Source: Pseudanabaena cinerea FACHB-1277 (GTDB lineage Bacteria; Cyanobacteriota; Cyanobacteriia; Pseudanabaenales; Pseudanabaenaceae). From it: a stretch of DNA of 34,588 nt. Both the position numbers and the translations under genes were made by a program. This document shows positions 31,384-33,086 of the stretch, one piece after another. The DNA lies in contig NZ_JACJPY010000049.1 of the NCBI RefSeq assembly GCF_014696345.1, forward strand, positions 1 through 34,588, in the 5' to 3' direction. Below the pieces are notes generated by a model. It had not been told where the DNA came from. It made no database searches and saw nothing but the letters and a program-made list of their open reading frames with translations. Every line of letters begins with the position of its first letter. Within the stretch, counting starts at the first letter, position 1.

Positions 31384-31419
31384 CAAGCAACGGAAGTGTA
31401 GTGACACTTCCGTTGCTTG
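31384..31419. repeat. Perfect 16-base hairpin
   Basis: CAAGCAACGGAAGTGT, a 4-base AGTG loop, and its exact reverse complement. It lies upstream of the hydrolase gene and downstream of the broken gene at 31562, with no U-tract. The rest of 31285-31561 shows no gene. Confidence 0.75.
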
Positions 31420-31561: not shown

Positions 31562-32297
31562 TTAGTTAAACTTCACATCTCGTAAGGGTGTAGTGGTCGC
31601 ACTTGCGCCAGTGCTGAGGATTTCATCCGCAAAATTACTAATGCGATTACCTACCATCGTAAACACTGTTCCTGTGCCAATCGCTCCATCGGCAATAGGG
31701 ATTACCAAAGCGATCGCTCCATAGGAGTTACTAGATACCGATCCACCACGGGAGTTGACTGTGCTAATGGGCTTGGCGGTGAGAATGTTAATGCGATAAT
31801 TATTCCCTTGACGGAACGACACAGCCAAATTGATAGGATAGCTCTTGCCTGGAATTGTGACTGTGCCGTGATTATACTGAGAAAGGGTAGGAATTACATT
31901 ATTTTCACCTGCTCCAGATATATCGCGGTTTTCACCTAGCTGCGGACAAGGGGAAAACCTAAGACAGAAAATATGGATTGGGTGGTTTTCAAGTTGTCCT
32001 TGACAACTTGAAAACCGCGATAGTATTTAATTCAGACTGAGAACTATAGCTATCAATTTGAATGGAAACCTTTAACCCTTGAGTAGCTTGGACAATGCGG
32101 CGATCATTACGAGCCGTAGTGGAGCTTGCTCCCGATCTGGAGATAGTGGTAGCACCCATTGTGCCAGTGTAAGTTGCTAATGGCGCTCTTTCTGTAGAAG
32201 TTTGAGCGATTAGACTTGACGTGGGAACTTCCGCAAATAGAGAAGTTATAGGAACTGCCCAAAATATAGCAGTGAGAGAGATCGCCAACTTAGACAT
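31562..32297 (-). pseudogene. Small exported protein gene split by a MITE
   Basis: The N-terminal part (32297 down to about 32023) encodes a signal peptide (MSKLAISLTAIFWAVPITSLFAE) and a Thr/Ser-rich region. After the insert, the C-terminal part (GENNVIPTLSQYNHGTVTIPG...ATTTPLRDVKFN) runs to a stop at 31562. Removing 31923-32022 (100 bases) joins the two frames: ...SQSELNT-ISGAGENNVIP... for a 211-residue product. The length of 100, 1 modulo 3, is exactly what the frames require. I do not recognise the family; it would be an exported, beta-rich protein. As it stands the first half reads into SRTT and stops at 31989. It has the same GGAGAAAA RBS arrangement as the 134-residue repeat protein gene. 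Confidence 0.88.
31921..32022. mobile_element. MITE, ~98 bp with TA target-site duplication
   Basis: The terminal inverted repeats are TCGCGGTTTTCA, with TA on both outer sides (31921-31922 and 32021-32022). The interior has no coding capacity, and its right half is itself a 15-base inverted repeat (31984-31998 and 32002-32016). A TA duplication with short TIRs is typical of IS630/Tc1-mariner-derived MITEs. Exact excision restores the frame of the host gene. Confidence 0.88.
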
Positions 32298-32603
32298 GAT
32301 TTTTTCTCCAGAAGAATAAAGTTATCACAAAGCATTTGTAAAAAGGATTAAGGTGTAAAAACCCTTCATGGGGGCGCAGCCCCCACACCCCATTTAACTC
32401 AATTTGCTTATGACTAACGCAAACCGACCAAGAACTCAAGTTCTTGGTCGGTTTGCGTTAGTCAGCTAAAGCAGACTAAAAGAATTCCTCTAATCAGCCC
32501 GTTGAAACGGGTTTAAGCTTTCAGCCCGCAATTTATGGCTACTGCGTAAGTCCTATAAATGATGGCGCAAAGCGCTGTAAGATTGCTGTAGAGGTTACTC
32601 AGG
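32298..32603. other. Intergenic stretch of hairpins
   Basis: No gene seen. It holds a G/C hairpin GGGGGC-GCA-GCCCCC at 32370-32384, the long palindrome at 32411-32464, and a REP-like CCCGTT-GAA-AACGGG hairpin near 32498. All are of dispersed-repeat type. Confidence 0.6.
32411..32464. repeat. 54-bp near-perfect palindrome
   Basis: The arms 32411-32436 and 32439-32464 are perfectly complementary with a 2-base loop. In either strand this forms a 26-bp stem. No coding content. Confidence 0.9.
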
Positions 32604-33008
32604 TTATTTTACTGTTCTAGTAGTTGTGCCAGTTTTACCATTTACACCTGTGCGAGTGGTGGTTTGAGTCCCACTGCCATTAACAGAGCGATTAGTAGTT
32701 GTAGTATTGCCGTTTACGCCTGTGCGAGTGGTGGTTTGATTTCCACTGCCATCAACAGACCGATTAGTAGTTGTAGTATTGCCATTTACACCTGTGCGAG
32801 TGGTGGTTTGATTTCCACTGCCATCAACAGAGCGATTAGTAGTTGCAGTATTGCCATTTACGCCTGTGCGAGTGGTGGTTTGAGTCCCACTGCCATTAAC
32901 AGAGCGCTTGGTGGTTTGTTGAGCAATTACCTGAGAGTTGCCACCCATGAAGACAGGCAAAGAGATGGAAACAAACAAGATTGAGTGGATAATTGTAAAT
33001 TTAGACAT
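32604..33008 (-). CDS. Exported tandem-repeat protein, hypothetical
   Basis: A 134-residue protein with a signal peptide (MSKFTIIHSILFVSISLPVFMGGNSQVIAQ) and then four 24-residue repeats of the type TRTGVNGNT.TTNRSV.GSG.QT, rich in Thr, Gly and Asn. The DNA repeats are 72 bp in exact register (marker TGTGCGAGTGG at 32649, 32721, 32793 and 32865). It probably forms an extended or beta-roll surface protein; the function is unknown. Such perfect repeats change copy number readily. An RBS GGAG lies before the start ATG at 33008. Confidence 0.75.
   Translation of the reverse strand: MSKFTIIHSILFVSISLPVFMGGNSQVIAQQTTKRSVNGSGTQTTTRTGVNGNTATTNRSVDGSGNQTTTRTGVNGNTTTTNRSVDGSGNQTTTRTGVNGNTTTTNRSVNGSGTQTTTRTGVNGKTGTTTRTVK
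32633..32920 (-). repeat. Tandem array of four 72-bp repeats
   Basis: The units start at 32649, 32721, 32793 and 32865 with few substitutions between copies. They are coding repeats within the 134-residue protein, in frame. Confidence 0.9.
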
Positions 33009-33034
33009 GATGTTTTCTCCTGTAGTGAATAAAT

Positions 33035-33086
33035 AGAAATTGAGATTAGAAATTGAGATTAGAAATTGAGATTAGAAATTGAGATT
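33035..33086. repeat. Four exact copies of a 13-bp direct repeat
   Basis: AGAAATTGAGATT is repeated four times without a single change, ending just before the stop of the Spy-like gene (33088) and lying in the leader of the repeat-protein gene. A simple-sequence repeat that could change length by slippage. Confidence 0.95.

Follow-up and report, generated by a model that had tools for sequence, protein, structure and literature searches.

A putative IS630/Tc1-mariner-type MITE within a small gene for a probably exported protein of Pseudanabaena cinerea

Analysis of a 34,588-nt stretch of Pseudanabaena cinerea FACHB-1277 (the whole of which we call the window) indicated that positions 31923–32020 very probably constitute a MITE of the IS630/Tc1-mariner type, moved by a transposase into a TA within a small exported-protein gene and breaking that gene. 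MITEs that fold, break genes and lie 3′ of genes are already known as a kind; this MITE family is new. In the mechanism that we propose, the element carries no gene, and its ends would be the sites at which an IS630 transposase supplied from elsewhere binds and cuts. The enzyme would have placed it at a TA inside a gene whose product was probably exported, with duplication of the TA, as seen for a sister family (family B) and inferred for the window copy. The net gain of 100 bp would have shifted the frame, so that the first part of the gene would now end in a short tail encoded by the MITE, and the second part would be left without a start of its own like the original one.

Anatomy of the element, its family and related IS630 elements

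With its two flanking TAs, the element occupies 102 bp (31921–32022). Its terminal repeats, TCGCGGTTTTCA, lie in opposite orientations at the positions given in Table 1; nowhere else in the 34,588 bases of the window does this sequence occur with up to one mismatch. By chance, 0.12 such places were expected, and 1 of 100 shuffles contained two or more. When the TA is counted in, the ends show perfect inverted identity across 14 bases, in agreement with the TA-flanked terminal repeats of the original prediction, and the arms continue less perfectly to a length of 39 nt (74% complementary). The predicted 15-bp hairpin at the right end was found as a perfect stem (31984–31998 paired with 32002–32016, 3-nt loop) with a folding z of −7.9, and a left hairpin is also present in the family consensus, the left-end fold scoring −1.6 in the window copy vs −6.7 in the consensus. 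Folding of the two strands gave z values of −6.9 and −7.5, which none of 200 shuffles equalled. A terminator search (GC-rich stem followed by a T run) gave one match in the window copy, on the + strand and hence antisense to the host gene, and two matches in the region vs 1.0 expected. An Rfam search of the window at the gathering score matched no family.

Table 1. Coordinates of the element and of the two parts of the host gene in the window
Feature	Position	Strand	Evidence
5′ part of split gene, residues up to SELNT, putative exported protein	32021–32297	−	ORFs, joined frame, codon usage
3′ part of split gene, ISGAGENNV... to stop codon	31562–31922	−	ORFs, joined frame, codon usage
Putative non-autonomous IS630-type MITE, family A, 98 bp	31923–32020	+	Perfect terminal repeats, 19 distinct places in own genome
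Left TA, probable target duplication	31921–31922		Sequence; TA at both ends in 9/12 aligned full-length copies
Right TA, probable target duplication	32021–32022		Sequence
Left terminal inverted repeat	31923–31934	+	Repeat search
Right terminal inverted repeat	32009–32020	−	Repeat search
Left fold-back hairpin, partly decayed in window copy	31927–31959	+	13 pairs in family consensus
Spacer core	31960–31983	+	Alignment of 12 copies
Right fold-back hairpin, intact	31984–32016	+	15 pairs, 3-nt loop

Searching the window's own genome with the element returned 25 matches in 19 distinct places, six rows being the same hairpins on the opposite strand, so that the further copies that had been predicted do exist. 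A model search gave 29 own-genome matches, both strands counted, and matches in 23 of 26 genomes of the genus. Many hits in relatives retained one hairpin only. The nearest full-length copy in the own genome was 84% identical to the window copy, and shorter copies reached 90% over 69 bases. Twelve full-length copies of this family (family A) were aligned, leaving out the shorter copies L007, L014, L015 and L016 and the relics L021, L022 and L025, and gave a mean column identity of 88%; both outer ends carried a TA in nine of them. The consensus opens with TATCGC and closes with GCGATA; between them lie, in order, a hairpin of 13 pairs, a spacer of 24 nt and a hairpin of 15 pairs. The window copy differs from this consensus at 14 of 102 positions. 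Within the spacer, the unpaired AAATATGGATT (31969–31979) was invariant in all 12 copies and more conserved than the element ends. The exact core pattern had no match among the named genomes, a set from which the records of the own or very near genomes are possibly absent. A coding repeat, of which the Rickettsia palindromic elements are an example, was considered and rejected: both strands of the consensus have an open frame of 34 codons, yet the substitutions followed no codon pattern, with 30, 26 and 23 at third, first and second codon positions and 22/79, 23/77 and 15/76 synonymous in the three frames (L005 excluded from both counts).

Candidate parents were found outside the window's genome. 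In genome G013, of the same genus, locus L090 holds an IS630 element roughly 1.05 kb long whose frame breaks at an A run; its ends are TATCGCGGTTTGCAAGAAAGTAAGGACA and TATCGCGGTTTTCAAGATAGTGAGGACA, and its protein parts have HTH_Tnp_IS630 and DDE_3 domains. A protein 100% identical to that of L090, with the same element ends, occurs in Pseudanabaena ULC068bin1 (L173). IS630 elements with matching ends, such as TATCGCGGTTTGCAAG and TATCGCGGTTTTCAAG, were present in Pseudanabaena (L173 and L178) and Aphanocapsa (L176). Among eight named loci with a relative of the matching transposase, six belonged to Pseudanabaena, and the remaining two came from Aphanocapsa and from an uncultured Verrucomicrobia bin. 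Of 28 end bases, L090, L178 and L176 shared 18–23 with the MITE ends, both those in the consensus and those in the window copy, compared with 16–21 for the sister IS elements L094 and L148 and 7–16 for the ends of 11 other IS630 elements; of 7,158 TA-starting 28-mers from the same loci, the best apart from parent and sister IS ends reached 17–19. The sister element L094 is 1,022 bp long, has TATAGCGGTTTTCAAATGAGC ends and encodes a transposase 51% identical to that of L090.

The check for an autonomous IS630/Tc1 element with the same ends led to elements with similar ends in Pseudanabaena and Aphanocapsa and failed in the own assembly, where the L090 transposase had no match at the strict limit of 1e-30 in 179 contigs, from which a collapsed 1-kb IS could have escaped. 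A single DDE_3 fragment of the own genome, at a contig end, lies beside a terminus of a different type (TACAGCC), which rules it out as the parent. Since no matching transposase was found there, family A is probably now immobile in the window's genome; mobilization in trans, by a transposase copy since lost or missing from the assembly, is possible.

Family B, whose MITEs are about 105 bp long and fit the L094-type IS, is present in the own genome at L027, L035, L037 and L044 and in genome G006 in 42 copies, two of them counted twice, giving at least 40 distinct copies, many nearly identical. Thirty-five of the 40 share flanks with genome G005; the others (L186, L191, L200, L205 and L213) had no counterpart among the G005 loci compared, which are part of the G005 copies. 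The expansion of family B appears mostly to predate the split of G005 and G006. One copy (L199) interrupts a GAF/cyclase-domain gene of G006, with the same insertion in G005, and all 19 relatives that were compared run uninterrupted across the junction, five of the alignments being gapped slightly elsewhere. At the junction, a single TA is present in 13 relatives and another dinucleotide in six (G025, G011, G020, G019, G010 and G015), the six including the relative most similar in sequence, G025. The net insertion was 103 bp, i.e. the element and one TA. This empty site is direct evidence that elements of this group insert with duplication of the TA. Because the sister family has it, the TA duplication proposed for the window copy is likely too, by kinship, even though no empty site was found at the window locus.

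Fold-back ends and placement behind genes

In both families the MITE ends fold back on themselves and the ends of the parent IS elements do not. The 45-nt end segments of the family-A consensus and of three family-B copies gave z values of −5.0 to −7.9 against single-base shuffles, compared with −0.9 to +1.1 for the ends of five IS elements of both parent types. Each MITE end resembles a parental terminal repeat joined to an inverted copy of itself, forming a hairpin absent from the parent, and in transcripts this hairpin would make a strong stem. Doubled transposase-binding sites, stable RNA stems and replication-based palindrome correction are all possible accounts of the fold-back ends.

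The placement of 19 other family-A copies (18 other places in the own genome and L049) was evaluated after removal of the element, with genes called by a crude ORF rule without annotation, at cut-offs of 80, 120 and 150 codons, and, as the null, each copy placed at random among the TAs of the intergenic region in which it lies. At 120 codons, 18 of the 19 were intergenic, and 14 of these had a stop codon no more than 30 nt away vs 4.98 expected, a number that none of 200,000 simulations reached; the gene pairs around the 18 were convergent in seven cases, co-directional in ten and divergent in one. The counts were 15/17 (5.37 expected) at 80 codons and 13/18 (4.83) at 150, and full-length copies alone gave 8/10 vs 3.06 (P 0.0002). 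No other family-A copy is as clearly intragenic as that of the window; the others inside ORFs were L009 and L010 at 80 codons, L010 at 120 and none at 150. Outside the own genome the tendency was weak: eight independent relic sites included five near a stop codon vs 2.32 expected (P 0.018, one gap being trivially short), or four vs 2.1 (P 0.07) under a stricter cut-off for gene length. Family B in G006 showed a smaller excess and may have a mild tendency toward stop codons: 6/35 vs 2.95 (P 0.057) at 120 codons, where 3 of the 40 copies given were inside ORFs and 2 at edges, 8/32 vs 4.13 (P 0.029) at 80, and 5/34 vs 2.61 (P 0.10) at 150. In the own genome, family B gave 2/6 vs 2.53.

In the own genome, family-A copies other than that of the window persist mostly directly 3′ of stop codons. 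Because family and genome differ together, insertion preference and survival are inseparable in the comparison of A with B. For RUP and other pneumococcal repeats, the available part of one study reads a similar pattern as relaxed constraint behind genes (PMC3049150), so that survival rather than function may suffice to explain the placement.

One site in the genus carries such a hairpin at a conserved position. The site is intercistronic and directly follows the stop codon of a gene for what resembles, by eye, an HNH endonuclease; a single hairpin of the right-hand type was present there in 17 of 18 orthologous loci. In 7 of the 26 genus genomes nothing matched the site, and in the own genome the sole match was the hairpin of the window copy. 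The conserved stem is 84% alike to the right end of the MITE over 43 bases and would be a MITE remnant. In 15 of its 17 sequences (one was dropped for being one base longer and one as equal to that of another genome), 92.8% of stem cells paired vs 89.4% for shuffles, none of 500 reaching the observed value, with two-sided changes in 4 pairs vs 1.6 (5 of 500) and 8 cells vs 2.9 (0 of 500), kinship inflating the significance. By eye, no clear T run was seen at this site. At the same site in genome G016 (L282, 1932–1987 and upstream) there is a family-B-like double hairpin, which would be an independent insertion or a replacement.

Paired changes were also seen in the mobile copies. In the 12 aligned rows, 90.5% of hairpin cells paired; shuffles gave 88.5%, and 1 of 500 came up to the observed value. 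There were five two-sided pair changes vs 1.8 (11 of 500), one of them in the window copy, which has a T-A pair where other copies have G-C. A copying bias, i.e. template-switch correction of imperfect palindromes, could have produced these changes instead of selection on RNA; we regard this explanation, which concerns the hairpins only, as a serious possibility that falls short of being the favoured one. Near-perfect palindromes with short loops are the classic substrate of such correction, and two-sided changes occur both in mobile copies and at the conserved site. Against it, the conserved site has one hairpin: if it once held a full element, the stem was kept while the rest was lost, which correction bias alone does not predict. 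Co-option of MITE hairpins as gene-end RNA structures is a plausible hypothesis. The wider proposal, that IS630 elements of Pseudanabaena repeatedly spawned double-hairpin MITEs whose stems were kept as 3′-end or intercistronic RNA, with single-stem fossils preserved across species, is put forward tentatively, as a scenario that we consider possible and would not yet expect to hold.

The split host gene

The first ORF of the split gene starts at 32297, enters the element and stops at 31989. The start of the second ORF, at 31828, is 469 bases away, a distance equal to 1 modulo 3, and leaving out 100 bp joins the two into a single open frame of 211 codons, as had been calculated in the original prediction. 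The same prediction took the frame offset as strong internal proof; with a prior chance of one in three, it amounts to support only. A 219-codon open stretch spans the junction, and by codon score the joined frame was the best sense frame in both halves (0.09 vs −0.02 and −0.20 for the other sense frames in the first, 0.12 vs −0.05 and −0.17 in the second). The further copies of the element, the autonomous elements with similar ends and the empty site of family B support the claim that an IS630/Tc1-type MITE has split a gene. Judged by eye, the N-terminus of the joined product resembles a signal sequence.

Several repeats surround the gene. A perfect 16-bp hairpin between its end and an esterase gene (31384–31419) is a candidate gene-end structure, and just 5′ of the gene lies a perfect palindrome (26 bp, 2-nt loop; 32411–32464), whose arm occurred in 8 of 324 loci examined, every one covering the same place. 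Farther on, a putative exported protein built of 72-base repeats of the VNGNTTTTNRSVDGSGNQTTTRTG type is encoded at 32604–33008 (−), with a 13-base tandem repeat, TAGAAATTGAGAT, upstream of it (33034–33085). The split gene and this repeat-protein gene have similar start regions (32287–32314 and 32998–33025; 86% over 28 nt), a likeness that suggests a common leader or a duplicated upstream region.

An old insertion, with the gene now a decayed or re-used pseudogene of which the cell uses the second part or the fusion with the MITE, is compatible with the MITE reading; we consider it possible, if rather doubtful. The insertion had been called recent, a claim that the differences of the window copy from the consensus and from its nearest full-length and shorter relatives do not bear out. 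Those 14 differences in 102 positions, the lack of a close full-length sister copy in the own genome and an 88-codon ORF with a TTG start within the second part are what an old insertion would accommodate. All 211 codons are still open, however, and the sense frame looks coding-like in both parts, while the changes in the right hairpin are two-sided and preserve pairing, so that the divergence may largely predate the insertion.

The statement that excision restores the frame stands as arithmetic. According to the available part of the study on the ISY100 transposase, the cut made by that enzyme falls exactly at each 3′ end and, at each 5′ end, two bases inward (PMC2170065), and end-joining after excision of this kind would be expected to leave TA, two bases and TA, about four extra bases that keep the gene out of frame. 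Since four leftover bases equal 1 modulo 3, ordinary excision is not expected to repair the gene; precise loss of the element would need another route.

That the two ORFs were never one gene, and agree in frame by the one-in-three chance, is improbable. This reading draws on the absence of known relatives: a Pfam search of the 211-residue joined product gave no family above cut-off, and a search of 37 further genomes of the family brought up nothing related to the joined protein. It also draws on an antisense frame of the first half that scored 0.091, equal to the gene's own 0.09, which makes the codon test weak there. Opposed to it are the codon scores, which favour a single joined sense frame in both halves, and the open stretch of 219 codons across the junction. 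As the split gene is without relatives in those 37 genomes, the proposed empty-site comparison at the window locus came to nothing, and a search with the first half in 25 other genomes of the genus found no empty site. A non-mobile, REP-like RNA hairpin or terminator module, with the terminal repeats as by-products of its palindromes, would account for the many single-hairpin matches in relatives, the placement of family A near stop codons and the similar hairpin kept at one site with compensatory changes, and is nonetheless very hard to credit given the TA at both ends of 9 of 12 aligned copies, the empty site of family B, the match of the ends to IS630 elements without end hairpins and the position of the window copy inside a gene.

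Relation to known MITEs and meaning for the genus

The MITE of the window can be compared with several known systems. RUP, as described in the part of the paper available, is about 107 bp long, has terminal repeats like those of IS630-Spn1, is tightly folded and over-represented between convergent genes, and splits a gene annotated as two CDSs (PMC3049150). By anatomy alone, the window family is like it in size, IS630-like ends, folding and gene splitting; it differs in its host and in that, as far as that description goes, the terminal repeats of RUP pair mutually, whereas the ends of the window family also fold on themselves. ISY100 of Synechocystis, for which the available text states that the TA target is duplicated and that about 30 bp per end are enough for transposition (PMC2170065), shares the IS630/Tc1 family and the TA target and duplication but is autonomous, and the matching Pseudanabaena IS ends have no hairpins. 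In Anabaena sp. 90, 147 small MITEs, 15 of them in disrupted ORFs, are predicted to fold; likened by description, they differ in that the available part of the report gives no matching IS in that genome (PMC3542288). QMITE2 of Coxiella, which the part of a review available places mostly in 3′ untranslated regions (PMC10969869), is alike in its 3′ placement, again by description. In the open-licence literature, no report of Pseudanabaena MITEs was found among the matches listed, which is weak evidence of absence. Nezha, reportedly an active MITE of cyanobacteria, is similar by description as a cyanobacterial MITE.

The case in the window is an ordinary yet well-documented one of a bacterial MITE breaking a gene. 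Beyond the insertion, the main interest lies in MITE ends that fold back with no counterpart in the parent and in their survival behind genes. With the genus-wide set it can be tested whether mobile hairpins come to serve as gene ends, and why the MITEs fold and their parents do not. If the retention of their stems at gene ends is true, a mobile element would be a source of new gene-end hairpins in Pseudanabaena.
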